This document shows positions 5,801 through 53,245 of a stretch of 64,000 nt of DNA, piece by piece (position 1 is the stretch's first letter; each line of letters opens with the position of its first letter). Below the pieces are notes generated by a model, which saw nothing but the letters and a program-made list of their open reading frames with translations, ran no database searches and was not told where the DNA came from. This DNA comes from Trichocoleus sp. FACHB-46 (lineage in GTDB: Bacteria; Cyanobacteriota; Cyanobacteriia; FACHB-46), in contig NZ_JACJOD010000076.1 of NCBI RefSeq assembly GCF_014695385.1, positions 1 through 64,000 of the forward strand. The letters run 5' to 3'. The position numbers and the translations under genes were made by a program.

Positions 5801-7243
5801 CGCATCAGGTGTGCGTTCTACCTGAGCTTCAAAGAGATGATGTAAACAAAGGGTTGGGTCTGATATGGATGGATGTTCTAGATCATTCCACTCGATTAGA
5901 AGTTGATGCTGTTCACCAGGGGTGAGGAGGGAGATCTCTTGGAGGCGAGTTCGAGAGTGGATAATAAAGCCTTCCAAAAGCGTTTGCAAATGTCCAAGGA
6001 GACGAGCGATCGCGGCATTCGTAAACTGCTGTGCATTATAGATAGCCTGAAGCAGTAGCTCTTCACCAGGAACTACAGTGATTGTGAGCGGATAATTGGT
6101 CTGCTCGAAGGTGCTGACTCGCTCGATCGTGAGATCCGTAGCGGGCGATTGCACCGTGGTATCAATGGGATAATTCTCAAACACTAGAATGCTATTGAAG
6201 AGAGGCAAAGTAGCAGGCACCTCGCTCCAACGGCGAATTTGCACCAGAGAGCTATATTCATACGCCTGACGTTCTATCTGTTGAGCCTGAAGCTTTTGCA
6301 GCCAGGGAATCAGCTCTGCCTCTGGCGGCACTTGCACTCGCAGGGGTAGCGTGTTGATAAACAGCCCCACCATTGATTCTACACCAGGCAAGGTGGGCGG
6401 GCGACCTGCAACGACGGTACCGAAGACCACATCCGATTCACCGCTATAGCAACTCAGTGCCAAAGCCCAGGCCGCTTGAACTAATGTATTGAGTGTCAGT
6501 CGTTGCTGTTGGGCAAAGGATTTTAGAGCCTGAGTGGTGGCAACTGGGAGATAGATGCGTTGCTCACCGCGATCGCCTTCTGGGTTAGTGTTTTGTTGTT
6601 CTAAGTTGATTGCTGTGGGTGCCGTAAAGCCCCGAAGATACTGCCGCCAGAAGGGCTCAGCACTGAAGGGATTGTGCTGTTGTAACCAGAGAATATAATC
6701 GCGATAGGGACGGGATGGTTCTAATCTGAGGAATTGTTGCTGCGATAAAGCCTGATAATCCGCCAGAATCTCTTTGAACAACAACGCTGTAGACCAACCA
6801 TCTAACAGGAGATGATGGTGGCTCCAGATAAAGTAATGAGCTTGCTCAGCAGTTTGCATCAGCGTGCAGCGCGTCAGAGGTGCTTGAGGCAGGACAAAAC
6901 CGCGATCGCGATCTTCTTGCAAGAAACTTTGTAATTTCTCCTCTCGATCAGAAACATATACCTGTCGCCAATCTTGCTCCTCCCAGGGCAGTTCCACCTG
7001 TCGATACACCACCTGGTAGGGTTGCTCTAGCCCCTCCCAGCAAAAGGCAGTGCGGAGAATGGAGTGGCGATCGCACAACCGCTGCCAAGCTTGTTGGAAC
7101 GCAGACCGATGGAGCGGCCCATTTAGCTGCCAGCAAAACTGCTCAAAATAAACCCCAGACTTAGGCGCATGCAGGGTGTGAAACAGCAAGCCTTGCTGAG
7201 TGGGCGAAAGTTCGTAAATGTCTTCAATGTTTTCCATCTGCAT
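2804..7243 (-). CDS. NRPS, C-A-PCP-R (terminal module, reductive release)
   Basis: A 1479-residue terminal synthetase. Order: C domain (SHHHLLLDGWS near residue 140) starting ELSPTQQGLLFHTL, a type that usually follows an epimerase and accepts a D-residue; A domain (YTSGSTG near 618); PCP (FFELGGHSLL near 1023); thioester reductase domain starting LLLTGATGFLGAFLL (about 1114) with a YVQTK catalytic tyrosine-lysine pair. Specificity residues read by eye are D-L-F-N-N-A-L-T-Y-K, a code I associate with alanine in cyanobacterial synthetases. There is no thioesterase here or elsewhere in the cluster, so release is probably NAD(P)H-dependent to an aldehyde or alcohol. The ATG overlaps the preceding stop as TAATG. 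A repeat-derived stretch lies inside the A domain at 4686-4748. Confidence 0.93.
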   Translation of the reverse strand: MQMENIEDIYELSPTQQGLLFHTLHAPKSGVYFEQFCWQLNGPLHRSAFQQAWQRLCDRHSILRTAFCWEGLEQPYQVVYRQVELPWEEQDWRQVYVSDREEKLQSFLQEDRDRGFVLPQAPLTRCTLMQTAEQAHYFIWSHHHLLLDGWSTALLFKEILADYQALSQQQFLRLEPSRPYRDYILWLQQHNPFSAEPFWRQYLRGFTAPTAINLEQQNTNPEGDRGEQRIYLPVATTQALKSFAQQQRLTLNTLVQAAWALALSCYSGESDVVFGTVVAGRPPTLPGVESMVGLFINTLPLRVQVPPEAELIPWLQKLQAQQIERQAYEYSSLVQIRRWSEVPATLPLFNSILVFENYPIDTTVQSPATDLTIERVSTFEQTNYPLTITVVPGEELLLQAIYNAQQFTNAAIARLLGHLQTLLEGFIIHSRTRLQEISLLTPGEQHQLLIEWNDLEHPSISDPTLCLHHLFEAQVERTPDAIALIHDAQQLTYRELNQRTNQLAHHLQSLGVGPEVLVGVCLPRSPHLILSLLAILKAGGAYVPLDPNYPEERLLFMLSDAQVAVLLTQDQMEGDRIPTVPDCHRVALDTAWEHISQLPDTDPASTVTATNLAYVIYTSGSTGVPKGVAIQHSSPVVLVEWAKTVFTNAELAGVLAATSICFDLSVFEIFVPLSWGGRVILAENALHLPTIPAASQVTLVNTVPSAIAALLQAGSIPDSVRTVNLAGEPLQPALVQRLYQQPTIQRVYNLYGPSEDTTYSTVALMQRGDWSTPSIGRAIAQTQIYLLDTHLRLVPIGVPGEIYIGGAGLARGYLNRPELTNERFIPNPLALLNTPHSLLHPTGTLSANTPPSHLYKTGDLARYRSDGSLEFLGRIDHQVKLRGFRIELGEISAVLSQHPSVQEVVAVTREDQPDQVRLVAYIVLAETINRDRPPTSLHQIWRDYLGQRLPAYMVPAAFVILDAFPLTPNGKIDRKALPSPDFNSLESVAIAPPSTPTEIQLVQIWSELLNVGSIGVHDNFFELGGHSLLTTQLLSRMQTTFAVDLSLRQLFASPTIAALAALIDRQLHPDQAEPCSSNSFPELMADTVLPADIQPTSPFQPKAPEHLLLTGATGFLGAFLLAELLRQTKATIYCLVRAEDEQAAYKRLQRSLQTYKLWREEWRDRIVAIPGDLAQPNLGLSAAQFQFLAETVDAIYHNGAWVHHALPYASLRAANVVGTEVVLRLACQHHTKPVHIVSTNSVFAPTAKSGVQTIWEQDIPTLEAVPNNGYVQTKWVAERQVMNARDRGLPVTINRPGRISGDSQTGVFNANDFLYQLIIGCVHLGSAPQGEMPIDFIPVDYVSQAIVHLSLQPGALGQAFHLVNPRPLSAEQLIHKIRSLGYPLQRLPYSEWRSQLLEMAQHQPDHPLYPLVPMFPPAPEAASRPASLEFDYRNTLVGLAGTSIHCPAISDSLLDTYFAYLIENGHLTPPVPAHANTSR
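4686..4748. repeat. in-frame short-repeat insertion in A-domain loop
   Basis: GAGGAGTG-type sequence plus one copy of TTCGCTGAAAGCGTTCCCG (from 4701) lie inside the adenylation domain, between the coding for FIPNPL and YKTGDLARY (motif A7). The encoded peptide (LLHPTGTLSANTPPSHL) is unlike any core motif. The same two repeat types recur elsewhere in the cluster. The element keeps the frame open. Confidence 0.75.
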
Positions 7244-10200
7244 TAACGTTTCTTCCCGGATTGCAGTTGAGCCATGAGTTTCTGAAGGTCAGAGCCGCTG
7301 AGATTGGCAGCAGAGAAGCTAGGGGCCGATTGAGTTTGTTGAGCTAGGGAGAGGAGCGATCGCAAATTCTCCTGAAATTGTTGTGTCAGGTTTTCAATTG
7401 TTGGTGCTTGGTGAATGGCATTGCTAAACGTCCAATGCACCCGCAGCTGTTGCTCGGCAATAATGCAGTTGATTTCTAACAGGTGCGATCGCTGTCCCTG
7501 AGGACTCCGTGAGGCACCCATAGACTCCTGGGCTGGACGGAAGAGAGAGGCGGTGTTAAATGTTGCGTCAGTTTGTCCTAAATAATTGAAACAAACTTGA
7601 GGATGGGGAGCCGCTTGTAGCTCTGCTTCTTGGCTGAGATAACGGAGAATGCCATAACCGATGCCGTTGTTGGGCACCTGCCGCAGTTGGGTTTGTATCG
7701 ATTTGATCAGACTCAAGGCATCCTGTGGCTTGTAGCGCAGTAGGCACGGGAAGATGGCTGTAAACCAACCAACTGTGCGTGAGAGATCGATCGCCTCAGA
7801 AATTTCTTCGCGTCCGTGTCCTTCTAAGTCAACCCAAAGCGCTGATTTCCCTGTCCAGGCTGTTAGGGTTTGGGTCAGTGCCGTCAGCAGTACCTCCTGG
7901 ATCTGCACTTGATGCTTGGTAGAAAGGTCTCGCAGGAGAACTTGAGTTTCCTCAGCAGTCAGGGTGAGCGTGATAGTCTGCGATCGCCTTATAGTATTCT
8001 CTCCATGAGGATCATCGACGGGGAGAGATGCATCATGCTGTTGCGACTGTCGGGCTTGATTCAGCCAGAATGATTGCTCTTGTTGCAACGTCTGCGATCG
8101 CGCATAGGTTTGCAATGCTTCACCCCACTGTTGAAAGGAGGTGGTTTTGGCGGGTAGCTGGATAGGTTGCTGCTGTTGAAGTTGAGCGTAAGCGGTCTGG
8201 AAGTCTTCTAGTAAAATCCGCCAGGAAACGCCATCAATCAGCAAGTGATGAACGACGATCAGCAAACTGCTAGGTTGATTGATGCCCAACTGGAAGAGCG
8301 CCACCTGCATTAAGGGAGCTTGATCCAACTGGAGTTCAGCTTGTAGTTCGGAGGCGATCGCGGTTATCTTTTGGCGCTGAACAATTTCAGCTTCACCTAA
8401 CAGATCCACGACAGTCACAGGTGCAGGGATATCTTGATCTGCATGGGCGGCTGTCCAAGCATTTCCAGTTTGGGTAAATTGCGATCGCAACACATCATGA
8501 TGCTGAATCAAATGCGTCACGATCTGCTGGAGGGCTTCTGGTGTCAAGGGTTTCTGGACTTCCAATAGCAGCGATTGATTCCAGTGGTGCGCCTCGGCAA
8601 TATCTTGTTCAAAGAACCAGTGCTGAATTGGGGTGAATGGTAACGCTCCTGTGATCTTCCCTTGTTCGGCTATAACGGCAGTGGCAGGAGCGGCGATCGC
8701 AGCGAGTTTGGCGATCGTTTGATGTTCAAACACCTGCTTTGGCGTAATCCTTAGCCCTGCTTGATTGGCTCTGGCCGTCATTTGAATGCTGAGGATGGAG
8801 TCACCACCCAACTCAAAGAAGTTCTCATGAATATCAACTCGCTCTAAGCGCAGCAGTTGTGCCCAAATCTCGGCTAACTTAGCTTCAGCAGGTGTGGTAG
8901 GAGCAACAAACTGCGCCTGACGATTTTGCGTCTGAGTTTCGGGATTGGGTAATGCGCGGCGATCGACTTTGCCATTGGCAGTCAGCGGGAAGGCTGCGAC
9001 GGATATACAAATCGCAGGTACCATATATTCTGGCAATCGCGCTTGGAGATGCGATCGCAGGGTTTCAGAGGTTACTGTTTCAGCCGGAGATTCTGGCACC
9101 ACATAGGCGACCAAGCGTTGCTGACCCGATGTATTGGTGTGCACCAAGGCGATCGCATCTTGCACTTCAGGATGCTGCCGCAATACAGTCTCGATCTCAC
9201 CTAATTCAATCCGGAAGCCTTTGAGCTTGACTTGATGATCAGTGCGTCCCAAATATTCCAGCGTTCCATCGGGGCGATAGCGAGCCAGATCTCCGGTTTT
9301 GTAGACGAGTGAGGAGTGAGGAGTGAGGAGTGAGGGGTGAGAAGGATGGGGCAGCGCTAATGGGTTGGGGATAAAGCGTTCTGCGGTTAGCTCTGGACGG
9401 TTGAGATATCCTCTCGCCAGTCCTGTCCCACCAATGAACAGCTCCCCAACGACGCCGATCGGAACGGGTTGTAGTTGCTCATCTAGGATATAAAGCTGCG
9501 TATTGGCAATGGGGCGACCGATCGGCACTGATCCTGCTTCGGGGTCATCTGGTGCAACCGTGTAAACGCAGCAACCTACTACGGTTTCAGTAGGGCCATA
9601 CTCATTCACCAACAGCGTCTCTGGAGCTGCCTGCCGCCAGAAACTTAGTGACTCTGCTGTGAGATTTTCGCCACCAATAATAAATCGACGGGTACATCCC
9701 CGCACCTGCTCAGGAAATAACTGCTGGCTCAACACACCGAGGTGAGCAGGCGTAATCTTGACCAAACTGAGATTCTTCCGACGGACTAAGGCATCTCGCA
9801 ACGTTTCCAAACTGGGGTCATCGGGTAGCAACTCTACACTGCGCCCCACCAGTAAAGGAGACCACAGACTAGTGACGGTCAAGTCAAATGCCAGCGAGGA
9901 ATGCACCAGACTGCCTTCTCCTTGCGCTACTTCGTAAGCTTGAATTGCCCAGTTGAGATAGTTGGTCAACCCGCGATGATGAATTAGCGCTCCTTTCGGT
10001 TGCCCAGTCGAACCAGAGGTATAAATCACATAGGCCAAATAGTCAGGTTCCGTGACGGCATCAAGATTCTCAGTTGGGGATGTGGCAACAGTTTGCCAAT
10101 CGCGATCGAGGCAAAAGATCGGAGTTTGAGTGGCTGGTAGTTTAGACAACAGGTGCGACTGCGTCAGCAGCAAAGGTGTTTGCGTGTCTGACAAGATGAA

Positions 10201-11856
10201 GGCAATCCGATCGCGCGGGTAACCCGGATCGATCGGCACATAGGCTCCGCCCGCTTTGAGAATCCCCAGGAGGGCAACTACCATCTCTAGGGAACGCTCC
10301 ACACACAAGCCCACTAACGTATCCGCACCCACCCCTTGCGATCGCAGGTAATGCGCCAGTTGATTTGCTTGGGCATTGAGTTGAAAGTAGGTGAGCTGGC
10401 GATCGCCAAAAATCACGGCAATCTCATCAGACGTACGGCAAACTTGCGCCTCAAACCAAGGAGTCAAACACTCAAAAGGAGGTAGATCGGTTGCAGTTTG
10501 GTTGAACTTGACCAGCAGTTGTTCGCGTTCGGCGGGACTTAGAATCTCCAGTTGCGCGATCGCCGTATCCGGAGCCTGAATCGCACGGGTGAGGAGGGTT
10601 TGAAGTTCCTCAAACAACCGCTGCATGTCTATTGCCGTAAACTGGGTGGCGTTGTAATGTAGCTCAGCTGTGAGGCCATCCGTCCGCTGAATCCCGCACA
10701 GCTTAATCCAGAAATAATCAGTGCAACTTTCTACTTGGGCGATCGCGTAACGTATCCCGGCAGTTTCCCAAACGTCAGACTGATCGATAAACTCAAACGC
10801 TAACGGTAAAACTCGCGATTCTAGACCTGCGTTCTGAATTGGCAACCCCTGCGCGCAAACAAACGCATCTTGATGCAGCGCCATCTCCTGCCGAGTGGCT
10901 TGCACCTGCTTCAACGCTTGTTGAAAGGTCAAATCGGGTCGCAACTGACTCGACAAGGGCAAGGTACGAGCTAACAGACCAATCGCAGGTTCTAATTCCT
11001 CATAGTTGCGACCATCCAGACTTACACCCAGCGTCAGTGCTTCCTGCCCCGTCAGTCGCCACAGTAAAACTTGCCAAGCCGTGAGGAGAGCATCCGCGAT
11101 CGCGTCACTCCCCATTTGGTCAACCAAGACAGATGGCACTGTCCAGGTGAGCTTTTCCGGCTGTAACGCCGCATATCGCTCGGCAGGTTGAACAGGCAGC
11201 GAGAGCGTTTCTAGCCCAGCATCATCCAGCTTCCGCCAATAGTTCGGTGTGGCGCTGTTTTCCTGAAGCAGTTCATTTTGCCAGGTTGCTAAGTCTGCAT
11301 ACTGTAACGGTTCCTCTGCTTCTAATGAAGGAGACGCTTGCAGACACACAGCGTACTGTTGAACAATTTCCTGTACCAAATTCTTGAGAGTGGCAGCATC
11401 ACCGCAGAGAGCAGACAGACTCAGCATCAAGCAATGTTGCTCAGATGACTGACGAATTAAGCACCACTGCAAACTCTGCCCTAGGGGTAGATTCTGTGCT
11501 TGCCACTGTTGCCACAGCCTCTTCAGTTCAACTGCTTGATCGGGTTCTGACAGGTGGTTCCAATCGAGCGTCGCGATCGCCTCAGTAGGTGTTTCCTGAA
11601 TTACCTGAAGCGGCAGATCCAAACCGGGAACCAATTGAAAGGTTGTTCGCAATATCTCATAGCGATCGATCACATCGCGCAGTGCAAGTTGGAATGTGAT
11701 TGGATCGATCGCGCCTGAAATGGAGATGGCCGCCTGAACTCGATAAGGCTGAACGGCATTGGCTCCAGTGAGTTGATGCACAATCCACAGATGCTTTTGT
11801 TGCGGGGAAAGTTCGTAGCCTTCCAGGTTTGTTGAGGGTTGAGTGAGCTGTTGCAT
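7243..11856 (-). CDS. NRPS, interface-A-PCP-E (second beta-OH-Asx module)
   Basis: A 1537-residue synthetase. The N-terminal condensation-like domain has lost the HHxxxDG motif (it reads SLSALCGDAAT near residue 150). This is the state described for interface domains that recruit stand-alone aspartate beta-hydroxylases in siderophore synthetases. The A domain follows (YTSGSTG near 613), then PCP (FFELGGDSIL near 1018) and an epimerase (HHLLIDGVSW near 1203; later EGHGRE and RTVGWFT). Specificity residues by eye are D-L-T-K-I-G-E-V-G-K, closer to published asparagine than aspartate codes. The missing true C domain is at the end of the preceding protein. The inferred product residue is D-beta-hydroxy-Asp or -Asn. 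The 3' end overlaps the next start as TAATG. Confidence 0.92.
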   Translation of the reverse strand: MQQLTQPSTNLEGYELSPQQKHLWIVHQLTGANAVQPYRVQAAISISGAIDPITFQLALRDVIDRYEILRTTFQLVPGLDLPLQVIQETPTEAIATLDWNHLSEPDQAVELKRLWQQWQAQNLPLGQSLQWCLIRQSSEQHCLMLSLSALCGDAATLKNLVQEIVQQYAVCLQASPSLEAEEPLQYADLATWQNELLQENSATPNYWRKLDDAGLETLSLPVQPAERYAALQPEKLTWTVPSVLVDQMGSDAIADALLTAWQVLLWRLTGQEALTLGVSLDGRNYEELEPAIGLLARTLPLSSQLRPDLTFQQALKQVQATRQEMALHQDAFVCAQGLPIQNAGLESRVLPLAFEFIDQSDVWETAGIRYAIAQVESCTDYFWIKLCGIQRTDGLTAELHYNATQFTAIDMQRLFEELQTLLTRAIQAPDTAIAQLEILSPAEREQLLVKFNQTATDLPPFECLTPWFEAQVCRTSDEIAVIFGDRQLTYFQLNAQANQLAHYLRSQGVGADTLVGLCVERSLEMVVALLGILKAGGAYVPIDPGYPRDRIAFILSDTQTPLLLTQSHLLSKLPATQTPIFCLDRDWQTVATSPTENLDAVTEPDYLAYVIYTSGSTGQPKGALIHHRGLTNYLNWAIQAYEVAQGEGSLVHSSLAFDLTVTSLWSPLLVGRSVELLPDDPSLETLRDALVRRKNLSLVKITPAHLGVLSQQLFPEQVRGCTRRFIIGGENLTAESLSFWRQAAPETLLVNEYGPTETVVGCCVYTVAPDDPEAGSVPIGRPIANTQLYILDEQLQPVPIGVVGELFIGGTGLARGYLNRPELTAERFIPNPLALPHPSHPSLLTPHSSLVYKTGDLARYRPDGTLEYLGRTDHQVKLKGFRIELGEIETVLRQHPEVQDAIALVHTNTSGQQRLVAYVVPESPAETVTSETLRSHLQARLPEYMVPAICISVAAFPLTANGKVDRRALPNPETQTQNRQAQFVAPTTPAEAKLAEIWAQLLRLERVDIHENFFELGGDSILSIQMTARANQAGLRITPKQVFEHQTIAKLAAIAAPATAVIAEQGKITGALPFTPIQHWFFEQDIAEAHHWNQSLLLEVQKPLTPEALQQIVTHLIQHHDVLRSQFTQTGNAWTAAHADQDIPAPVTVVDLLGEAEIVQRQKITAIASELQAELQLDQAPLMQVALFQLGINQPSSLLIVVHHLLIDGVSWRILLEDFQTAYAQLQQQQPIQLPAKTTSFQQWGEALQTYARSQTLQQEQSFWLNQARQSQQHDASLPVDDPHGENTIRRSQTITLTLTAEETQVLLRDLSTKHQVQIQEVLLTALTQTLTAWTGKSALWVDLEGHGREEISEAIDLSRTVGWFTAIFPCLLRYKPQDALSLIKSIQTQLRQVPNNGIGYGILRYLSQEAELQAAPHPQVCFNYLGQTDATFNTASLFRPAQESMGASRSPQGQRSHLLEINCIIAEQQLRVHWTFSNAIHQAPTIENLTQQFQENLRSLLSLAQQTQSAPSFSAANLSGSDLQKLMAQLQSGKKR
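9306..9342. repeat. heptanucleotide tandem repeat in A-domain loop
   Basis: About five tandem units of the 7-mer GAGTGAG lie inside the A domain between the coding for FIPNPL and YKTGDLARY. They encode a Ser/Pro/His-rich stretch (SHPSLLTPHSSL). Short heptanucleotide tandem repeats (STRR) are known in filamentous cyanobacteria, normally between genes; here they are translated. Confidence 0.75.
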
Positions 11857-11890
11857 GGTGCGAGTTATTTGTTAAGGAAGAATTCTTGCT

Positions 11891-11917
11891 CCTCCCTCTC
11901 CTACGAGGAGAGGGAGG
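11891..11917. repeat. hairpin repeat between NRPS genes
   Basis: CCTCCCTCTCC, loop TACGA, then GGAGAGGGAGG: a perfect 11-bp stem in the 77-base gap between two synthetase genes, followed by CTGGGGGGGAGG. Similar hairpins occur at 44828 and 47695, so it looks like a dispersed intergenic repeat. As RNA it could damp transcription or stabilise mRNA ends inside the operon; there is no T-tract to make it a classical terminator. Confidence 0.7.
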
Positions 11918-11933
11918 CTGGGGGGGAGGTGAT

Positions 11934-17900: not shown

Positions 17901-19817
17901 CGGGATCTGTACGCCTTTGGGCTTGCCCGTGGAGCCTGAGGTATAGATCGTGTAAGCCAGATTTTCACCTGTAGCCTGGCTCATGGGGTTCTCAGAGTTG
18001 CAACGGGCGTTGGCGAAGCCTGAGCTTGCTCGTATCGCGTCCCAATCGCTATCCAGACAAACAAACTGAGCGCTATGTTGAGGTAAGGTCTCTAACAGCG
18101 ATCGCTGCGTCACTAACACAGGAGCCTGGGAGTCCTCCAGCATCAAGGCAATGCGATCGGACGGATGGGCAGGGTCAATCGGCACATAGGCACCCCCCGC
18201 TTTCAGGATGCCTAATAAGCCAACGATGAGATTGAGCGATCGCTCTACCGCAATGGCAACCAGCACCTCTGGACCAACACCGAGAGAACGCAGATAGTGA
18301 GCTAGTTGATTGGCTCGTTGATTGAGTTCTTGATAGGTCAAGGATTGATCTACGTAGGTAACTGCAATCGCATCAGGGGTACGCTCAACCTGTATCTCAA
18401 ACCATTCATGAACACAGCCAGGGGGAATGGTTTGAGCCTCGCGATCGCGAGTATTCCACTCAAACAATAACTGATGTTGTTCCGCCGCAGTCAGGAGCGG
18501 GATCTCTGCCAGCGATTGCTCAGAATTGGCGATCATGCGCTCCAGTAAGCTGCGGAGATGACCGAGGAGACGGGCGATCGCCTGTGGCTCAAATCGTTGC
18601 TCGTTGTAGGTCAGTTCAATTTGCCAGGAAGTGCCTGGGTGAATGACCACGGTTAATGGATAGTTGGTCTGCTCAAATGTCCAGATATCCTGAACCGCCA
18701 CAGAATCTGTTGCCTGTTGGAGGCTAGTATCGATCGGATAATTCTCAAAAACCAAGAGGCTGTCAAATAGCGGCGTACCTTTAGGAATTTGGCTCCACGA
18801 TTGGATCTGTACCAGGGGTGTGTATTCGTATTGCCGCATCTCCGCCTGTTGCAGCTGCAGTTGTTGCAGCCAAGGCAGCAAGGTTGCTTCGGGTGACACC
18901 TGAACACAGACAGGCAAAGTGTTGATCAGCAATCCCACAATCGTTTCAGCAGCGGCTAAAGAGGGAGGACGACCGGAAACGGTGCTGCCAAACACAACCT
19001 GTGCTTCCCCGCTGTAGCAACTCAACAATAATGCCCAGGCTCCCTGCATCAAGGTGTTCAGGGTGAGCTGATGTTGGCGGGCAAATTGGCTTAGGGCATA
19101 GGTGATCTCTGAGTCCAGTTCGAGTGACTGACGGGCAATGGAATTGGATATGTGGCGATCGCCTTGGCGACGGTCAATCGCGAGTGCGGTTGGTGCAGCA
19201 ATATCCTTGAGACTGTCTTGCCAGAAGGTTTTCGCGGCGGCTAAGTCTTGCTGTTGTAGCCAAGCGATGTAGTCTCCAAAGGGGCGACTGTTGATAATGG
19301 GAAGTGCCTCTCCCTGACGCAATGCTGCATAGGTTGTCCAGACTTGCTGCAACACCATCGCGGTTGACCATCCATCCAAAATTAGATGGTGCTTGCTCCA
19401 AATTAAGTGATAGCGATCGTCACTCAACCAAATCAGGCTGAGCCGCATCAAGGGTGGGCAAGTGAGATCGAACCCTCGCTGTCGATCCTGCTGGATGTAT
19501 GTTTGTAACTGCTGGTGCTGTTGTTCCGGAGACTGCGATCGCCAATCGAACTGTTCGATCGTCAGCGTCACTTGCCGACAAACGATTTGCAAGGGCTTTT
19601 CTAACCCTTCCCACTGAAGCCCTGTGCGGAGGATAGCGTAGTGTTGGATGACCGTCTGCCATGCCTGTTCTAGTTGCTGTGGATGAACATCTCCCTGAAG
19701 CACACAGCCAAACTGACCTACGTAGATATCTGCTTCGGGCGTGTAGAGGCTGTGAAACAGAATCCCCTGTTGGGTAGGAGACAGCTCGTATAGGTTTTCA
19801 ATTTGGTTCAGGTTCAT
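11934..19817 (-). CDS. NRPS, C-A(Gly)-PCP-C-A(Lys2-like)-PCP-C
   Basis: A 2627-residue bimodular synthetase with an extra C domain. Order: C (SKHHLILDGWS near residue 140, post-epimerase type), A1 (YTSGSTG near 626), PCP (GGHSLL near 1021), C (MHHIITDGWS near 1219), A2 (FTSGTTG near 1707), PCP (GGHSLL near 2101), and a final C (LHHIISDAWS near 2297) that must serve the next, interface-headed protein. A1 reads D-I-L-Q-L-G-M-I-W-K, one residue from the classical glycine code. A2 is divergent: GLAHDPLLRDIFAPLWVGA resembles alpha-aminoadipate reductase (Lys2) adenylation domains, and its code D-P-R-H-C-G-V-Q-I-K shares DPRH with aminoadipate codes. Its substrate is unknown. The ATG overlaps the preceding stop by four bases (ATGA). 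Confidence 0.93.
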   Translation of the reverse strand: MNLNQIENLYELSPTQQGILFHSLYTPEADIYVGQFGCVLQGDVHPQQLEQAWQTVIQHYAILRTGLQWEGLEKPLQIVCRQVTLTIEQFDWRSQSPEQQHQQLQTYIQQDRQRGFDLTCPPLMRLSLIWLSDDRYHLIWSKHHLILDGWSTAMVLQQVWTTYAALRQGEALPIINSRPFGDYIAWLQQQDLAAAKTFWQDSLKDIAAPTALAIDRRQGDRHISNSIARQSLELDSEITYALSQFARQHQLTLNTLMQGAWALLLSCYSGEAQVVFGSTVSGRPPSLAAAETIVGLLINTLPVCVQVSPEATLLPWLQQLQLQQAEMRQYEYTPLVQIQSWSQIPKGTPLFDSLLVFENYPIDTSLQQATDSVAVQDIWTFEQTNYPLTVVIHPGTSWQIELTYNEQRFEPQAIARLLGHLRSLLERMIANSEQSLAEIPLLTAAEQHQLLFEWNTRDREAQTIPPGCVHEWFEIQVERTPDAIAVTYVDQSLTYQELNQRANQLAHYLRSLGVGPEVLVAIAVERSLNLIVGLLGILKAGGAYVPIDPAHPSDRIALMLEDSQAPVLVTQRSLLETLPQHSAQFVCLDSDWDAIRASSGFANARCNSENPMSQATGENLAYTIYTSGSTGKPKGVQIPHHALTNFLHSMRQEPGLTAEDVLLSVTTICFDIAALEVYLPLITGARLVLASRGTAMDAQQLIQLMRQSGATVMQATPATWRLLLAAGWQGNPQLKILCGGEALSHELADQLLVRSQSLWNMYGPTETTIWSMVERVEPWNESVRLGRAIANTQIYVLNQSLQPVPIGVPGELHIGGAGLARGYLNRPELTQERFIVNPFRHMSSLPILGEIEVGGADRLYKTGDLVRYLSDGTLEFLGRIDHQVKLRGFRIELGEIEAVLGQHLDVREQVVILRQDGGGNQQLVAYVVSQADAKSDPSQLRDWLKAKLPEYMVPSAFVILEALPLTLNGKIDRKQLPAPDWTELTKTFVAPQTDTEAAIAKLWAQVLGVNTIGIHDNFFELGGHSLLATQIMSRIREAFAVELPLRCLFESPTVEELAATISQRTQDSTNTSAPLKPVDRDTAPLPLSLSQQRLWFLHQLEPNSSAYHLSAALRFTGNLDVTVLERSLNAILERHEILRTRFQILDGEPVQAIAPTLKINIPIVDWQDLRPSIQEAETAQFIQAEIEQAFDLGQAPLFRIKLLRLSPTHHLAVLTMHHIITDGWSMNAFVQELTELYTAFIIPPRGNAFSEHSSPLSPLPIQYADFAIWQRQRLQGEFLEQQLSYWKQQLQNASAQLALPTDHLAPGFKGEKRSHILPAALSAAIKGLGHKEGATLFMTLLAAFKLLLYRYTDQSDLCVGSPIAGRTQQDTEALIGFFVNTLVLRTDLSGQPSFRELLQRVRGVTLDAYAHQEVPFEKLVEVLQPERQLNQTPLFQVFFNLLNYRDSKLELPGVTVEAIANDHAHSKFDLTFYAWEQEDQIHLEWVYNAHRFCPERIAIMQEQFQELLEQVVTNPEQAITQFSLVTPTTQTLLPNPEAPLLESWAGSIQSHFTEQAKRHPNQLAIVDRDETWSYAELDAWSNQLAHYLRLHGIQSQDVVAIYGDRCAALVLALLGIWKAGAVFLILDPSYPVGALRDRLQIARPQGWIQIGAELPDELQVVLQELSCRCELDLSLRSAIEQCLQDYSSHHPGIEVEAHDLAYVTFTSGTTGEPKAVLGEHAPLSHFFQWYHKTLQLEPSDRFSLLSGLAHDPLLRDIFAPLWVGATLYIPDAEQIGTPGCLQTWIRQQEITISHLTPAMAQLLLSEGVEDTQPKGIPSLRYVCSGGDILTRSLVERLRAIASAVTCINVYGTTETPQIMGHYVIPPTVPIEELRDRLPIGQGIADVQLLILNESQQLAGIGEVGEIYVRSPYLARGYLNDEALTQARFISRTNALGERLYKTGDFGRYLPDGSIEYLGRRDQQVKIRGFRVELGAIASILTQHPEVQDAVVILHEEASQPQRLIAYVVSPSQTVDLVDSLRTTLKAQLPSYMMPSDIVVLETLPLTPNGKIDRKALPIPERQEVAISNHARSPVEEVLTGIWAQVLELENVGIHDNFFDLGGHSLLATQVISRLNRAFEIELPLRDLFEAPTVAGLAAQIETTLRSASGEPIPAIQPLSREQTIFPLSFAQRRLWVLDQLEPGNPFYNIPIAVKLSGALEIAVLEQSFQEIIQRHANLRTTFTTVEGEPVQAIAPHLPFELPIIDLQALPATEQTVEVQRLISEEAQHAFDLSQGPLLRATLLKLSDSEHILLLNLHHIISDAWSMGVLVRELADLYAAFVSQAPSLLAPLSIQYPDFAVWQQQWLQGDRYQAQLDYWKQQLRGLPVLALPTDHPRPAVQSFRGASHTIQLSKDLSQQLRSLSQQSGVTLFMTLLTAFEALLHWYTGQENLVVGTDIANRHPVETEGLIGFFVNQLVLRTDASGNPTLTDLLHRVRQITLDAYTHQDLPFDHLVEALNPPRDLSRTPLFQAKFVLQNAPMPSLSLANLNLEVLEVDRGTAKFDLLINLADTPEGIQGSLYYSTDLFEVASMTRLWERFEFALQYLVAQPESHLSELAIALTEADRAQHRRSQQQKLRQMRRKVTPIS
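16040..16092. repeat. in-frame short-repeat insertion in C-domain loop
   Basis: GAGAGGAGAGAGGGGTGAGG followed by one copy of the TTCGCTGAAAGCGTTCCCG element, inside the second C domain, between the coding for ELYTAF and LPIQYADF. The encoded peptide includes PPRGNAFSEHSSPLSP. The final C domain of the same protein has a shorter, unrelated linker at this point, so the stretch is an insertion. Confidence 0.75.
17251..17287. repeat. C-rich repeat insertion in A-domain loop
   Basis: A C-rich block (GCCCCCCCCACC, then TTTCCCCCAGAATTGGG) lies just before motif A7 of the glycine-activating domain and encodes LPILGEIEVGGAD on the minus strand. It belongs with the blocks at 22636 and 32875 and occupies the same protein loop as the heptamer repeats in other modules. 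Confidence 0.6.
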
Positions 19818-22800
19818 TGGGCACCCCCACGGGTTTGGCTCATTCGGGCGAACAGTTTGTTGAGGTCAGCTTGGCTAACGTTGGCTTGCGGGAAGTCAGA
19901 AGGCGTGAAGTTACTCACTGGAGCTGCTTCAGGGTGGAGGATCGATCGCAAACTCGTCAGAAACTGCTGCGTCAGTCGCTCGATCACTGGCAGAGCATGA
20001 ATTTTTGGGTTGTAAATCCAATCCAACTGCAAACGCCCTTCTAACACCAAGGCATTGACTTCGAGCAAATACTGCCGCTGAGCTTGAGGACTGCGGGTGG
20101 CTCCGGTGTCAGTAGTCGCCATGCGGAATAGTGAGGAAGCGGCTAAGGTCGCGTCAAACTGTCCTAGATAGTTGAACAGAATCTCAGCTTGGGGTGCGTT
20201 TTGCAGGTTGGTTCGCACTAATTCATCGGAGCTGAGATAACGCAAAATGCCATAATCTACGCCACTGTGAGGTATCTGCCGCAACTGTTCTTTCACAGAC
20301 TTCAATACCTCACTCACTTCTGCCTGAGCATCCACCGCTAAACGGGCAGGGTAGATGGCAGTGAACCAGCCAACTGTCCGGGAGACATCTGCTTCTGACA
20401 GCACTTCCCGTCCATGTCCTTCCAAATCAATTAGAAAGTCTGTCTTGCCTGTCCAAGTCGCGAGGCTGTGGGCTAATGCCGTCAGTAATACTTCATCCAC
20501 CTGTGCCCGGTAAGTCTTGGGCATGGCCTGGAGTAAGGTTTGGGTTTCGTCTGCATTGAGCGAGACAGAGAGGGTTTGGGCAGAGGCGATCGCATTCTCT
20601 CCAGTTCCATCTCCCGGTAACATAGCCACAGAAGCATTCAAGGTTTGCAACCAGTAATCAACTGTTTTCTGGCAAGCTTCTGACTGCACATAGGTTTGCA
20701 ACTGCTTTGCCCACCGCTGGAAGGAGGTTGTTTTAGGAGATAACTGCACCAATTGGCCTTGCGCCAGTTGGTGATAGGCTGTTTGCAAATCCTCCAATAG
20801 TACCCGCCAAGACAGACCATCCACTGCCAAATGGTGAATCACAATCAGCAGTTGATCCGATTGCTGTGCCCCTCGCTGAAATAGCACCCCTCGCAGTAGT
20901 GGCCCTGTTTCTAAATTCAGGCTAGTTTGCGCCCGGTGAGCCGCTTGAGCGATCGCCTCTTGCTGACTTTCAACTTGATTCGATAGATCCATCACCGTGA
21001 ATGGAATCTCTTTTTCAAGACCACCATTCATCTGATGCCACGTATCCTCGACACGCTGAAATCTCAGCCGCAGCGCATCATGATGATTCATCAGATGTTG
21101 GATCGCCTGCTGCAAAATTTCAACTCGTAGCGGAGCTTGCGCTTCTAGGAAAACAGCTTGGTTCCAGTGGTGAGGTTCTGCCAAGTTTTGCTCAAAGAAG
21201 CGATGCTGAATTGGGGTCAAGAGAACTGCACCTGTAACGAGTGCTTGAGTTGCCGTTAAATCGCCCTGCGGCTGACTTTCAACTACTAGCGCCAATTGAG
21301 CGATCGTCTGGTGTTCAAACAACTGCCGAGGTGTGAAGCGTAACCCGATTTGGTTGGCTTTGGCGATCGCCTGAATGCTCAGGATGGAATCTCCCCCCAA
21401 CTCAAAGAAGTTGTCATAAATGCCCACCTCAGCGACATGCAAAACGCTTGACCAGATAGCACTCAGTTGTCGCTCAACTTCATTACGAGGCGCAGCAAAG
21501 GCAGGTTTGGCGATCGAATTTTGTGTTTTGGGAGCGGGTAAGGCTTGCCGATCTAATTTGCCATTGGCAGTCAGGGGCAAAGCTTTCAAGCTAACGAAAG
21601 CAGACGGCACCATATATTCTGGTAATCGTTCTGCTAAAAAGGAGCGCAGCGTCTCTGCCAAGCCTGGGGTATCCGGAGTCTGTGGTACAACATAGGCTAC
21701 CAATTGCGGCTGATTCGGTTGATCTTCTCGTTTGATTACTGCTAGCGATCGCATGTCTGGATGCTGTCGCAAAACGCTCTCTACTTCTCCCAGTTCAATC
21801 CGAAAGCCACGAATTTTTACCTGATCATCTGCCCGACCCAAAAACTCAATCGTGCCATCCGGGAGATAACGAGCCAGATCTCCGGTTTTATATAGGAGTG
21901 AGGAGTGAGGGATGAGGAGTGAGGAGTGACGAATAAAGCGTTCTTGGGTTAACTCAGGTTGTTGCCAATATCCTCGTGCTACATTCGCTCCGCCAATGTA
22001 GATTTCGCCAGGAACACCGACGGGAACAGGTTGTCGGCACTCGTTGAGGAGATAGATTTGGATATTAGCGATCGGAGTTCCCAAAGGCACTATCTCGGAC
22101 TCAGGCAATGTCTCAGGAACTGCATAGGTGAGAACGCCCACAGCTGTCTCTGTAGGGCCGTAGTGATTGAAGATTTGGCAACTAGGAGCCTGCTGCCGCA
22201 CTTGCTCAACCAACGCTCCACTCAATGCTTCTCCGCCTAGAATCAAGCGCTGACGTGGGAGAAAGCGATGTACATCAGGTGAGGTCAGCAGTGCCCGTAA
22301 ATGGGATGGCACAATCTTGAGACAGTCGATGGGGTAGCGATCGCCATATTCCGCTAAGGCTGCTGGGTTCATCACCCGATCTTGGGAGAGGATATGGAGA
22401 CATCCCCCAAAACAGAGGGAGGCAAAAATCATCGTGTTGCCCAGATCTGCTGCGAAGGTAGAGACGAGGGCAAAATTAGCGCCTAGAGGTAGTTCGTCGA
22501 ATTTGAGCGATCGCTGCACCCCATACAAATAGTTGCTGAGCTGCCGATGTTCAACTGCCACACCTTTAGGTTTCCCGGTGGAGCCAGAGGTAAACAGGAT
22601 ATAGGCTAGATTTGCAGGCGTGATTACAGCAGTTTTAGCCCCCCCACCCCCCCAACTTTGGGAAGAAACGGAGTCAAACTCACACGCTGAGGCAATCTCA
22701 TGATCCAAACGAATCACGGTTGATGCTGCATCGGCAGGAAGTTTTGTCAGTAAAGAGGATTGCGTGATCAGAACTGGAATCTCTGCCTCTTGCAGTCGTG

Positions 22801-24394
22801 CTGCTAAGGCCGCAGGTGGCAAGTTAGGATCGAAAGGAACATACGCGCCCCCCGCCTTGAGGATGGCAAGCAAGCTAATGATCATTTCTAGCGATCGCTC
22901 CAGGTAAATCGCTACCGGAGTTTCTAGCTCCACACCTCGTTGCTGCAACTCATATGCAAGTTGATTCGCCTTATCGTTGAGCTGTTGGTAGGTGAGCGAC
23001 TCGTCTTCAAAGACCACCGCAACTTGACCTGGCGATCGCTCGACCTGCGTCTCAAACAGCTCATGAATGCAGAGTTCCGGATACTCTACAGCGGTTTGAT
23101 TGAGGGTAAGGAGGTGCTGGCGATCGCTCTCGGTTAGGATCTTCAATTTGCCAATAGCTGTCTGCGGATCGCGAATCACGTTCTCCAAGAGAACTGTCAA
23201 GCGTCCTGCCAATTGCTGAACAGCCCCAGCTTCAAATGCTTGAGCGTTATAGTGTAGTTCCAGGTTTAGTTCTTCACGCTGCTGACCTACCAGCTTGAGC
23301 TGAAACGGCTCGATGTGAATTTGCCGCTGCTGGATTGTCCAGTTGAGATTGTTAGACGCAAAGGATGGTGATTGATCCAGCCATTCAAAGCTAAAAGGGA
23401 GAAAAGGTGGATGATGGGCGATCGCTAGTTCTGGCACATCCTTCCAAGTAAAGGCTTCTTGCCATTGGGCTGTGGTTTGGAGGGAGGTGTGGATTTGTTG
23501 GAGCAGGGTGGCAAAGGGCAGAGTTGCTTCTAGCTCAGAGCCGATCGGCAGAACTTTTGCCAGTAGACCCAGAGCCGCTTCCAGCTCCTCATAGTGCCGC
23601 CCCGCATCCGTCACACCCAAGATAAAAGTGGATTGATCGGTGTGTCGCCACAGCAGGGCTTGCCAAGCCACTAGAAGTAAGGTGGAAAGAGAAACTTGAT
23701 GAGATTGGGCGATCGCGGTTAGCGCTTGAGTCTGTTCGCCAGAAATAGTTAGGGTCACTTGCTGAAATTGAAATCCTAGTTTTTCAGGCGATCGCTGTTG
23801 GCAGGGTAGTTGCAAACGCTCTAAGGGAATCCAAGGTTGCTGTCGCCAGTAGACTCTCCCTGTTGCGGCCTCCTCACTTTCTAGCAGTTCACATTGCCAA
23901 GCAGCGAGATCGGCATACTGCACTGGATCAACCACATATTCTTCTCCCTGCCCAATCGCGGCATAGGCTTGACTGATTTGATCGACTAAATGCGTCAGGG
24001 CGATCGCATCGGTACACCAAATCGAGAGAATTAGTTGCAGGAGATGTTGATCAGTTGCCAGTTGGGTTAAACGTACTGTCAGCGGAGAGCAATCCGTGGT
24101 CAAAGCACCTGGCTCGAACCCCATTGCTTGTCCATCCCAAGATTCCAGGGTGGGGAGATGGTCTGTAATCACCTGCAAAGGGAGATCCGTTCCGGGCAAA
24201 ACGGCGATCGCAGTGCGGAGAATTTCGTGCTGCTGCGCTACCTGCTGGATCGCTGCTTCTAAAACCTGAAATTGCAGATCTCCCTCAATGCGAATCAGAC
24301 AGGTTGCCCACTTGGCGGACTGTTGATCTTGCTGAAACTGACATCGCTGTTGCTGCGGTGAAAGCTGGAATCCTTCAAGGGTTGGAGTTTGCAT
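19814..24394 (-). CDS. NRPS, interface-A(Asp)-PCP-E
   Basis: A 1526-residue synthetase. The N-terminal condensation-like domain lacks HHxxxDG (it reads ILSIWCTDAIA near residue 123), as in interface domains of beta-hydroxyaspartate siderophore synthetases. The A domain (FTSGSTG near 600) has the variant core TFAADLGNTMIF. Aligned to GrsA its code is D-L-T-K-I-G-H-V-G-K, essentially the aspartate code. PCP (FFELGGDSIL near 1000) and epimerase (HHLAVDGLSW near 1188; EGHGRE; RTVGWFT) follow. The gene lies directly downstream of the stand-alone hydroxylase at 24531-25586, the predicted partner that would hydroxylate Asp on this carrier protein. The condensing C domain is supplied by the Thr-module protein. 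The inferred residue is D-beta-hydroxyaspartate. The stop overlaps the next ATG (ATGA). Confidence 0.93.
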   Translation of the reverse strand: MQTPTLEGFQLSPQQQRCQFQQDQQSAKWATCLIRIEGDLQFQVLEAAIQQVAQQHEILRTAIAVLPGTDLPLQVITDHLPTLESWDGQAMGFEPGALTTDCSPLTVRLTQLATDQHLLQLILSIWCTDAIALTHLVDQISQAYAAIGQGEEYVVDPVQYADLAAWQCELLESEEAATGRVYWRQQPWIPLERLQLPCQQRSPEKLGFQFQQVTLTISGEQTQALTAIAQSHQVSLSTLLLVAWQALLWRHTDQSTFILGVTDAGRHYEELEAALGLLAKVLPIGSELEATLPFATLLQQIHTSLQTTAQWQEAFTWKDVPELAIAHHPPFLPFSFEWLDQSPSFASNNLNWTIQQRQIHIEPFQLKLVGQQREELNLELHYNAQAFEAGAVQQLAGRLTVLLENVIRDPQTAIGKLKILTESDRQHLLTLNQTAVEYPELCIHELFETQVERSPGQVAVVFEDESLTYQQLNDKANQLAYELQQRGVELETPVAIYLERSLEMIISLLAILKAGGAYVPFDPNLPPAALAARLQEAEIPVLITQSSLLTKLPADAASTVIRLDHEIASACEFDSVSSQSWGGGGAKTAVITPANLAYILFTSGSTGKPKGVAVEHRQLSNYLYGVQRSLKFDELPLGANFALVSTFAADLGNTMIFASLCFGGCLHILSQDRVMNPAALAEYGDRYPIDCLKIVPSHLRALLTSPDVHRFLPRQRLILGGEALSGALVEQVRQQAPSCQIFNHYGPTETAVGVLTYAVPETLPESEIVPLGTPIANIQIYLLNECRQPVPVGVPGEIYIGGANVARGYWQQPELTQERFIRHSSLLIPHSSLLYKTGDLARYLPDGTIEFLGRADDQVKIRGFRIELGEVESVLRQHPDMRSLAVIKREDQPNQPQLVAYVVPQTPDTPGLAETLRSFLAERLPEYMVPSAFVSLKALPLTANGKLDRQALPAPKTQNSIAKPAFAAPRNEVERQLSAIWSSVLHVAEVGIYDNFFELGGDSILSIQAIAKANQIGLRFTPRQLFEHQTIAQLALVVESQPQGDLTATQALVTGAVLLTPIQHRFFEQNLAEPHHWNQAVFLEAQAPLRVEILQQAIQHLMNHHDALRLRFQRVEDTWHQMNGGLEKEIPFTVMDLSNQVESQQEAIAQAAHRAQTSLNLETGPLLRGVLFQRGAQQSDQLLIVIHHLAVDGLSWRVLLEDLQTAYHQLAQGQLVQLSPKTTSFQRWAKQLQTYVQSEACQKTVDYWLQTLNASVAMLPGDGTGENAIASAQTLSVSLNADETQTLLQAMPKTYRAQVDEVLLTALAHSLATWTGKTDFLIDLEGHGREVLSEADVSRTVGWFTAIYPARLAVDAQAEVSEVLKSVKEQLRQIPHSGVDYGILRYLSSDELVRTNLQNAPQAEILFNYLGQFDATLAASSLFRMATTDTGATRSPQAQRQYLLEVNALVLEGRLQLDWIYNPKIHALPVIERLTQQFLTSLRSILHPEAAPVSNFTPSDFPQANVSQADLNKLFARMSQTRGGAQ
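21896..21930. repeat. heptanucleotide repeat in A-domain loop
   Basis: GGAGTGAGGAGTGAGG, then an imperfect repeat of the same 7-mer, sits between the coding for ERFIRH and LYKTGDLARY and encodes SSLLIPHSSL. Same loop and same repeat type as at 9306, 27769 and 36920. Confidence 0.7.
22636..22664. repeat. C-rich repeat insertion in A domain
   Basis: AGCCCCCCCACCCCCCCAAC followed by TTTGGG lies just upstream (in protein order) of the YILFTSGSTG core and encodes SQSWGGGGAKT. This type (runs of C, then a G run) resembles a common intergenic repeat of cyanobacteria and recurs at 17251 and 32875. Confidence 0.6.
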
Positions 24395-24530
24395 GATTGA
24401 ATCTGAAGTATCGGGTCTAGAGGAAGCGATCGCAGAGGCAGACGGGTAACGATTAGAGTAGGGGCGGCTTTAGGAGGAGATATCGAATCAGTTCAGCAAG
24501 GGATAGCCAAAACCCGCCCGTACGAGGTAT

Positions 24531-25586
24531 CTAATTGGTGTCAGGCAATCGCGATTCATAAGGTTCTGCCATCCCTACCACCACATTGCGGAGGCCGACA
24601 AAGGGAGTGCGTCCGTGAGCAGCGAGAAGGTTGTCGAGCAGCAGAATATCGCCTTGCTGCCAGGGGAAAATCACCATTTCTTGCTGATAGACTTCACGAA
24701 TCTCATCCAGAATGGAATCTTCAATGGGCGTTCCATCACCGTAGTAGGCATTGCGAGGCAGTTCTTCCGGGGGAACCACTGCCAGCAAAGACTCTCGCAC
24801 TGCTGGCGCTAAACTCGATACATGAAACAAATGGGCTTGATTAAACCAAACGCGATCGCCTGTGACTGGATGAGTCGCGATCGCTTGACAGACCTGTCGC
24901 GTTCTAAGGCGATCCTCACTGCGCCATTTCCACTCAATTCCTGCTTGCCGACAATAGACTTCTACTTCTGAGTGCTTTGAGGTTTGGAAAACTGTCTGCC
25001 AAGGAAGATCTAGACCACCGCCATAGTTGCGAACATACATTACCCGCTTCTCGATGAAGCGCTCCTTAATCTGGGAATCTAATTTTTGGAAAATTATGCG
25101 GCTATCCGCGATCGGGGTAGCTCCGTCTTCAACGGCGGGCTGTACGCAGTAAAAGGCGATTCTCAAAGGATAGCTACGGCTATAGGCCATCTCATTGTGG
25201 AGGGGAATCCACTGATCAGCTGGATATTCCGTTGAGGTATAGATCTTGCCGCTGACCGTGCTGCGGGGTGTGGAGCGATAGGAGTAATCGAGCAAGGAAC
25301 CATAAAGAGACTGCATCCATTGTTCAAAAGCGGGCACGCTGTTGATATTGAAGTTGCGAAACAGAATGCCGCCATGTTGCAACAGTTGGGATTCGAGCCA
25401 CTGCCGCTGATTCAGTGCCCAGGTTTCTAAATTCAAGCCTTCTACTTGGGGTTGAATGATCAGGGGTAAGGGCTGGTCTGGCTGCAGTTGGCTCGTCGTG
25501 ACTAGTTCTGTCGAAGCCGAAAAACTGACAGCTCGGCGTTTGATGCCTTGGAGTTTGAGACGGGAAGGGGATTCTGGGTGACTCAT
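24531..25586 (-). CDS. TauD/SyrP-like Fe(II)/2-oxoglutarate aspartyl beta-hydroxylase
   Basis: A 351-residue TauD/TfdA-family dioxygenase. GGILFRNFNI opens the core. The iron ligands appear as HNEMAYS (H-x-E) in the middle and AAHGRTPF near the end, and the arginine of that last motif is the expected 2-oxoglutarate ligand. The length and the HNEMAYS motif match the SyrP-type enzymes that hydroxylate carrier-bound aspartate at the beta carbon. The only hydroxylase of this type in the cluster, it would have to serve both interface-containing modules in trans (19814-24394 and 7243-11856). It lies 16 bases after the Thr-module gene and 136 bases before the Asp-module gene, same strand. The threo or erythro outcome cannot be told from sequence by eye. 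Confidence 0.88.
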   Translation of the reverse strand: MSHPESPSRLKLQGIKRRAVSFSASTELVTTSQLQPDQPLPLIIQPQVEGLNLETWALNQRQWLESQLLQHGGILFRNFNINSVPAFEQWMQSLYGSLLDYSYRSTPRSTVSGKIYTSTEYPADQWIPLHNEMAYSRSYPLRIAFYCVQPAVEDGATPIADSRIIFQKLDSQIKERFIEKRVMYVRNYGGGLDLPWQTVFQTSKHSEVEVYCRQAGIEWKWRSEDRLRTRQVCQAIATHPVTGDRVWFNQAHLFHVSSLAPAVRESLLAVVPPEELPRNAYYGDGTPIEDSILDEIREVYQQEMVIFPWQQGDILLLDNLLAAHGRTPFVGLRNVVVGMAEPYESRLPDTN

Positions 25587-30465: not shown

Positions 30466-30470
30466 GATAA

Positions 30471-31577
30471 TCAAAAGAAACTCAAAGCTGAATATTGGCC
30501 TGAAGAGGCAGCCGCGACAGGTTCAGGAGAGAGAGATTGTTGGATGCGATCTTTGAAATGGTTGAGATGCTCCAGACTGGCGATCGCCAAATCAAAGTCA
30601 ATGCCAAAATCAATTAGGCAGGCGACTTCATCGACCCCAATCTCCCGAAGGCGTTGAATCACGGGTTCACAGGTTTCAACGGTGCCAATTAGGGTTTTGC
30701 CGTCGAGATAACGCTCAAAGCCAAATTGCAGCAGCGTCTCAATATCGCTTTCGGTAAATTGCGCTAGGTTAACAGGCAGATTCTCTCGCTTGACCAGGCT
30801 TTCAATCAGGTCAAAGTGAGTTTTCAAATAATTACAAAAAGGAGCTTGTACCTGCCGCTTCACCTGCTCATAGTCCTCACCGATAAAGGTATGCATCATT
30901 AGCGAGACCTTTCCTGCCGCTGGGTCGTGACCATGCTGAACACGAGATTGCCGATAAAGCTGGATTTTAGGTGCCAGTTCTTCTACCGATGAGTGCAGCA
31001 GGGAAGTTAAGACATTGGCACCGAGCCGTCCTGCTTCTGTAAAGGTGTAATCAGAATGGCAGGTAATCCAAATCGGCAGTTTGGGCTGGACTGGGCGAGG
31101 CAAGGTGCGAACTTGCACAGGCTGCCCCGATCCATTTTTGCGTTCAATGGTTTGACCTTCCCAGAGTCGTTGCACCGTCTCGATTTCGCGCCACATCACG
31201 GCTTGGCGATCGCGGTAATTTTCGGGGAGCAACACAAAGTCATCCACATGCCAGCCATAGGCAAAGGTGAGACCCACCCGACCGTTGGATAAGTTATCCA
31301 CCACTGCCCATTCTTCGGCCACTCGCAACGGCTCTTGCAGAGGCAAAACAACACTGCCCGATCGCAACTGCACCCGCTCGGTAATCATCGCCAGAGCGGC
31401 ATTAATCACTGCTGGGTTGGGATACAGTCCGCCAAAATCATGAAAGTGTCGTTCGGGAATCCAGATAGAAGAAAACCCGTGGCGATCAGCGAATTTTGCC
31501 CCTTCGGTCAGGAGCCGATATTTATCGGCACTATGGGTAGAACCGTCGCCAGAGAAGTAGAAGAGACCAAACTGCAT
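30471..31577 (-). CDS. luciferase-like flavin-dependent monooxygenase (MupA/Atu3671 type)
   Basis: A luciferase-like (LLM) flavin oxidoreductase of 368 residues from the chosen ATG at 31577; the upstream in-frame ATG at 31637 would overlap the PKS gene. QFGLFYFSGDG at the start, GFSSIWIPERHFHDFGGLYPNP and VGLTFAYGWHVDDF are typical of the MupA/Atu3671 subgroup, which is found inside or next to NRPS/PKS genes. These enzymes use reduced FMN and oxygen. It lies between the PKS gene (8 bases away) and the Thr-module gene. An attractive guess is hydroxylation of the carrier-bound intermediate near the ketide, but the position of oxidation cannot be read from sequence. It is not an ornithine N-hydroxylase of the SidA/PvdA family. 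Confidence 0.85.
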   Translation of the reverse strand: MQFGLFYFSGDGSTHSADKYRLLTEGAKFADRHGFSSIWIPERHFHDFGGLYPNPAVINAALAMITERVQLRSGSVVLPLQEPLRVAEEWAVVDNLSNGRVGLTFAYGWHVDDFVLLPENYRDRQAVMWREIETVQRLWEGQTIERKNGSGQPVQVRTLPRPVQPKLPIWITCHSDYTFTEAGRLGANVLTSLLHSSVEELAPKIQLYRQSRVQHGHDPAAGKVSLMMHTFIGEDYEQVKRQVQAPFCNYLKTHFDLIESLVKRENLPVNLAQFTESDIETLLQFGFERYLDGKTLIGTVETCEPVIQRLREIGVDEVACLIDFGIDFDLAIASLEHLNHFKDRIQQSLSPEPVAAASSGQYSALSFF

Positions 31578-31584
31578 GATTAAT

Positions 31585-44810: not shown

Positions 44811-44827
44811 GGATACCTAACCCCCAG

Positions 44828-44850: not shown

Positions 44851-44933
44851 AGCTAGAGATATTTGATCCATATTTTACGTATGTCATGAACATGCTCAGG
44901 GTGGTTCGACAACTCAAGTTCTACTCACAAGAG

Positions 44934-45977: not shown

Positions 45978-45979
45978 AT

Positions 45980-47686: not shown

Positions 47687-47694
47687 GTTCAAAG

Positions 47695-53244: not shown

Positions 53245-53245
53245 C

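Follow-up and report, generated by a model that had tools for sequence, protein, structure and literature searches.

A single stand-alone β-hydroxylase and two interface-headed modules in a cyanochelin-type siderophore cluster of Trichocoleus

Work by Reitz and co-workers in PNAS in 2019 is said to have described, in Asp modules, a condensation-like domain that lacks the HHxxxDG motif and works with a β-hydroxylase (the IβH and TβH enzymes), and such interface domains were reportedly tied mainly to fused enzymes. The locus described here, in positions 1 to 64,000 of contig NZ_JACJOD010000076.1 of Trichocoleus sp. FACHB-46 (the whole 64,000-nucleotide stretch analysed, hereafter the window), contains the same HHxxxDG-less domain at the head of two nonribosomal peptide synthetase (NRPS) proteins, but here one stand-alone hydroxylase faces two interface domains, I1 and I2. 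The same general plan is found in the cyanochelin B cluster of Leptolyngbya sp. NIES-3755 (AP017310.1; PMC12628792), with fatty acyl-AMP ligase, polyketide synthase (PKS) and NRPS parts, a terminal reductase, and a flank of TonB receptor, binding protein, MFS and permease genes. In both clusters a CcsK-type stand-alone hydroxylase is followed by a protein with interface, adenylation (A), thiolation (T) and epimerization (E) domains (I-A-T-E; CcsL in NIES-3755) and the same Asp code. Unlike the window, the cyanochelin B cluster has a second, NRPS-fused hydroxylase feeding an E-less interface module (CcsI), so that hydroxylases and interface domains number 2:2; a fused enzyme is absent from the window, and E domains are present in both of its interface modules, as in CcsL. 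Earlier work has described interface domains, Asp hydroxylases of siderophore pathways in both fused and stand-alone form (PMC12971057, PMC12230676, PMC12628792) and the cyanobacterial classes CyanoBH_Asp1 and CyanoBH_Asp2 (eLife 2026, PMC12971057), and the window enzyme resembles these two classes as a TauD-family siderophore Asp hydroxylase from cyanobacteria. The new element is that one-to-one pairing has been measured as a rule and that this genus departs from it, with a stand-alone enzyme.

The three key genes lie within 7243-25586, and in minus-strand biosynthetic order they and the proteins preceding them (C, condensation domain) are as follows.

25603-30474, minus strand: NRPS, C-A-T-C; A code DFWNIGMVHK (Thr); terminal C domain before the hydroxylase and I2
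24531-25586, minus strand: stand-alone Fe(II)/α-ketoglutarate TauD-family amino-acid β-hydroxylase, CcsK-like (PF02668, E=1e-44; tree)
19814-24394, minus strand: NRPS, I2-A-T-E, immediately following the hydroxylase; A code DLTKIGHVGK (Asp) (domain scan)
23096-24394, minus strand: interface domain I2, with SIWCTDA at 24005-24025 in place of HHxxxDG (alignment, tree)
19862-21247, minus strand: epimerization domain of the I2 module (HHLAVDG), grouping with the E domains of cyanochelin B synthetase (support 100)
11934-19817, minus strand: NRPS, C-A-T-C-A-T-C; A codes DILQLGMIWK (Gly), then DPRHCGVQIK
7243-11856, minus strand: NRPS, I1-A-T-E, without an upstream hydroxylase; A code DLTKIGEVGK (Asn-like) (domain scan)
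10501-11856, minus strand: orphan interface domain I1, with SALCGDA at 11395-11415 in place of HHxxxDG (alignment, tree)
7261-8664, minus strand: epimerization domain of the I1 module (HHLLIDG), grouping with the E domains of cyanochelin B synthetase (support 100)

The presence of only one hydroxylase gene, claimed by a first-pass annotation made from the window's letters, was confirmed throughout the genome (6.56 Mb, 99.98% complete). A search with the hydroxylase protein returned one match, the enzyme itself; a TauD search of the genome gave no second relative, and its sole other TauD protein, encoded on a separate contig, is most like taurine dioxygenase and was set aside as a candidate; an Asp_Arg_Hydrox search of the genome found no protein. 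The terminal C domain of 11934-19817 abuts the orphan I1 where relatives place a hydroxylase, and the 77-nt gap between the two genes (11857-11933) holds no hydroxylase remnant, just a short palindrome, CCTCCCTCTCCTACGAGGAGAGGGAGG. In the enzyme itself, the HxE motif lies at 25191-25199 and the distal His/Arg (AHGR) at 24609-24620; H130, E132, H324 and R333 are invariant in 25 sequences, and the metal- and cosubstrate-binding residues are intact. It is 92% identical to its counterpart in a congener (G002) and about 56% identical to CcsK, with which it groups in the stand-alone clade, apart from the NRPS-fused clade (branches supported at 95 and 99). The references of this tree were CcsK and proteobacterial stand-alone enzymes, in place of SyrP, and with these the predicted place among siderophore aspartyl hydroxylases was upheld. 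C-domain-terminated proteins that precede hydroxylase or interface modules often end in (Q)KL..(I/M)(K/R)RK, resembling hydroxylase N-termini; such ends occur at the C-termini of 25603-30474 and 11934-19817, and the hydroxylase N-terminus lies near 25530-25586. This tail is possibly a docking or fusion relic.

I1 and I2 belong to the condensation superfamily (PF00668 matches), and in an alignment of all domains SIWCTDA and SALCGDA fall in the HHxxxDG columns, as the first-pass annotation had read them; the remaining C and E domains of the window all retain HHxxxD. The phylogenetic check that it had proposed placed both, in a quick 90-row tree of the superfamily with SH-aLRT support, in one 68-row interface clade (support 100) that excludes the C, E and Cy domains of the window and of NIES-3755. 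The motif replacement is not due to chance, because the congener keeps the arrangement and the motif type (PVWCTDA and SALCGDM) and related motifs, in most cases [PS]-x-x-C-x-D, recur in about 120 homologous interface domains. Sequence identity is 39% between I1 and I2 and 49% between the A domains of their modules; the 39-59% identity per domain between the two I-A-T-E proteins rules out a recent tandem duplication of the gene. A joint I1/I2 clade is not rejected by the AU test (p 0.88), and an ancient common origin is possible, so that the branch taken by I1 within the interface clade is provisional. In a leave-out profile test I1 falls on the stand-alone-partner side, as do 93% of stand-alone-partnered and 24% of fused-partnered interface domains.

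The rule from which this locus departs was measured in a main survey that drew on 79 loci in named genomes, some 40 longer stretches of further genomes and a set of plasmid regions, with four more plasmid regions later. The whole set held 90 stand-alone and 53 fused hydroxylase contexts, some genomes being represented twice and a few contexts not being cyanobacterial; the earlier statement that interface domains pair with stand-alone hydroxylases thus stood for the former and was incomplete with respect to the latter. Essentially all cyanobacterial hydroxylases with an intact downstream neighbour directly precede an interface-headed protein. Counted per longer stretch, hydroxylases and interface domains are equal in number in 36 other clusters (22 with 2:2, 12 with 1:1 and 2 with 3:3), which are mostly complete and mostly cyanobacterial; G242, G286 and G372 are short contigs whose counts hold for the stretch covered, and one or more genome pairs (L. 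boryana among them) may be closely related to another entry. One hydroxylase per β-hydroxyaspartate (β-OH-Asp) module is a pattern seen in the relatives, rather than a published definition, and the window shows 1:2 instead, a ratio found among the cyanobacterial clusters only here and in the congener. Gloeothece citriformis PCC 7424 was considered as a further 1:2 case and ruled out by a second, fused hydroxylase. G005 is truncated where its contig ends, and five stretches in which hydroxylases occur without any interface domain are other contexts or fragments. No interface domain follows several of the proteobacterial stand-alone enzymes, whereas one does follow the fused enzymes and the stand-alone enzymes of Methylocystis and Alteromonas. 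A single contig of Holophagales bacterium UBA5704 (G390 contig 91, L106) likewise has one hydroxylase and two interface-headed modules; it differs in that the orphan module stands before the hydroxylase, more hydroxylases occur elsewhere in that genome, and the contig begins within the cluster.

The two interface modules of the window differ in both adjacency and code: I2 has an Asp code and an adjoining hydroxylase, and I1 has an Asn-like code and no adjoining hydroxylase. The consensus codes are DLTKLGEVGK for Asn and DLTKVGHIGK for Asp, and it is against these that the I1-module code (DLTKIGEVGK, in both the window and the congener) is Asn-like. About a dozen other interface modules with such an E-type code do have hydroxylase neighbours, including lineages in the wider clade of the window enzyme (L058, L070/L071); the E-type code is therefore compatible with hydroxylation. 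The I1 A domain is closest (61%) to that of a module directly behind a stand-alone hydroxylase in the plasmid cluster of Leptolyngbya boryana NIES-2135 (AP018205.1), where the hydroxylase is followed by I-A-T with an E-type code; that cluster differs in having an additional fused hydroxylase, and thus 2:2. The residue of the orphan module may be β-OH-Asp, β-hydroxyasparagine (β-OH-Asn) or unhydroxylated. The I2-module code is identical to the codes of CcsL and CcsI, whose residues are β-OH-Asp in cyanochelin B (PMC12628792). Some interface modules beside stand-alone hydroxylases (L099, L105, G115, G224, G215, L056) carry DSALIAEVWK or SSRDLAMGIK, not an Asp code; these codes probably denote other hydroxylated residues, such as His.

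Between the window and the congener, dN/dS is 0.14 for I1, 0.21 for I2, 0.07-0.10 for ordinary C domains and 0.05 for the hydroxylase. The carrier domain of the I1 module (0.045) is the sole part of the synthetases as low as the hydroxylase. I1 and its module are thus maintained, since they are under purifying selection. In mirror-tree comparisons over all pairs, the fit of the hydroxylase was 0.53 with I1 and 0.58 with I2, which is cognate-like (cognate median 0.62); this was not taken as proof, the signal being weak inside the stand-alone group.

Based on the results presented above, the mechanism of a shared enzyme may be outlined. The stand-alone hydroxylase would be recruited by the interface domain, either I1 or I2, and would add the β-hydroxyl to the amino acid held on the carrier of the same module, before chain extension. 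The peptide bond would then be made by the C domain that ends the preceding protein, after which the E domain would convert the residue to the D form. The orphan interface module would have lost, or never gained, its own partner hydroxylase. In the CcsK/CcsL pair the stand-alone enzyme gives R at the β carbon (3R hydroxylation; PMC12628792), and by analogy both residues would be D-threo. The product would carry two β-hydroxylated iron-binding residues, a double hydroxylation and a stereochemistry that we infer, and the siderophore would then have two bidentate ligands of the β-hydroxylated type, as in cyanochelin B.

That one hydroxylase acts in trans on both the I1 and I2 modules is the reading towards which we lean, if only slightly, because the orphan I1 resembles stand-alone-partnered interface domains and is under purifying selection. 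Also counted for it are the genome's sole hydroxylase relative, the interface clade, the place of the enzyme in the stand-alone clade with CcsK, its strong constraint (dN/dS 0.05), the one-to-one rule elsewhere, the L. boryana-like A domain, the E domains kept by both modules and the 1:2 contig of Holophagales. In alterobactin, the β-OH-Asp residues are reportedly assigned to a single fused domain, and this may be a precedent for one enzyme and two residues. The first-pass annotation went further and held that the single enzyme must serve both modules; this necessity was not borne out, since an Asn-like orphan module could stay unhydroxylated. Such is the main rival, plausible but holding a minority share of our confidence, in which the hydroxylase serves the adjoining I2 module only and I1 is kept for structural reasons, its D-Asn or D-Asp remaining unhydroxylated. 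Several points weigh on its side or against sharing: the hydroxylase gene stands directly before I2 alone; the A code of the I1 module is Asn-like and differs from the Asp code of I2; wherever the cyanobacterial context is intact, each of the remaining interface modules has a hydroxylase of its own next to it; purifying selection on I1 is equally expected from a purely structural role; within the stand-alone group the mirror-tree fit falls to 0.14 for I1, no better than non-cognate pairs, and to a weak 0.27 for I2; and recruitment of the hydroxylase is deduced from sequence. On the other hand, the interface-type motif of I1, including its Cys and Asp, is kept in both species under purifying selection, loss of the second hydroxyl would probably remove an iron ligand, and Glu at the same code position occurs elsewhere with adjoining hydroxylases (in the L058 and L070/L071 lineages mentioned above).

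The two residues need not be alike if the enzyme is shared. A variant with β-OH-Asp from I2 and β-OH-Asn from I1, which takes up a part of the confidence given to sharing and is unlikely on its own, agrees with the differing codes (DLTKIGHVGK and DLTKIGEVGK) and with the E-type codes found in about a dozen interface modules situated next to hydroxylases, but its specificity call leans on Stachelhaus-type rules. We know of no established use of β-OH-Asn as a siderophore ligand, which counts against it as well. That the I1 residue is hydroxylated by another, unrelated oxygenase encoded elsewhere is very improbable: a luciferase-like monooxygenase (30471-31637) is indeed part of the cluster, but this adjoins the PKS gene and not the I1 gene, and the three genome-wide searches (protein, TauD and Asp_Arg_Hydrox) gave no candidate in its support. 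Least credible of all, and close to negligible, is that I1 and I2 are degenerate ordinary C domains; membership of PF00668 would agree with this, but both lie inside the fully supported interface clade, which is separate from the C, E and Cy domains, an ordinary C domain already terminates each upstream protein, and both modules have Asp/Asn codes, as interface modules have.

The window locus as a whole is a cyanochelin-type lipopeptide siderophore synthetase cluster. It extends over about 1363-41566, the minus-strand gene order from 41566 down to 1363 being the biosynthetic order, with transport genes up to 56199. Acyl loading, two modules of the β-OH-Asp type and iron-uptake genes are all present, the Asp specificity of the second module being uncertain. 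Its remaining features are as follows.

36203-41566, minus strand: fatty acyl-AMP-ligase-like loading domain, then C-A-T (lipid loading; domain scan)
31585-36156, minus strand: PKS module with ketosynthase, acyltransferase, ketoreductase and acyl carrier protein domains (KS-AT-KR-ACP; domain scan)
30471-31637, minus strand: luciferase-like flavin monooxygenase (PF00296)
2804-7243, minus strand: NRPS, C-A-T and terminal thioester reductase (PF07993)
1363-2823, minus strand: class III aminotransferase (PF00202), which would presumably act on the reduced C-terminus
42216-56199, plus strand: TonB receptor, periplasmic binding protein, MFS exporter, penicillin-amidase-like protein, ExbB-like protein, two permeases and ABC ATPase

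The penicillin-amidase-like gene (47789-49918), possibly encoding a PvdQ-like deacylase, adjoins the siderophore cluster and has a counterpart in the L. boryana cluster. Many A domains of the synthetases have an in-frame lengthening of the loop from ERF(I/V)xNPF to YKTGD, which measures 22-38 aa in the window, 35-55 in the congener and 19-22 in relatives; the proteins concerned are 36203-41566, 25603-30474, 11934-19817, 19814-24394, 7243-11856 and 2804-7243. The inserts are repeat-like peptides (PHSSLL, HPAGTLSAN, TLRERFQRTLL), different in the two congeners, and look like dispersed repeats that entered a permissive loop in frame. A similar in-frame insert occurs in a C domain around 26600 of protein 25603-30474: SERSSPHPAGTLSANAPHPTLRERFQRTLLTP. 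Two further NRPS loci with condensation domains are present in the genome (contigs C71 and C10), with no hydroxylase relative there.

It is tentatively conceivable, though doubtful in this full form, that one trans-acting enzyme is shared by two interface domains as diverged as I1 and I2 (39% identical) and hydroxylates carrier-bound Asp and Asn, so that the interface domain, and not gene adjacency, addresses the enzyme. Interface domains have been proposed to dock the hydroxylase, direct proof being, to our knowledge, lacking. With one enzyme and two interface domains set against 36 clusters of equal number, this genus provides a natural test of the docking idea, and the finding bears on hydroxylase sharing when siderophore synthetases are re-engineered.

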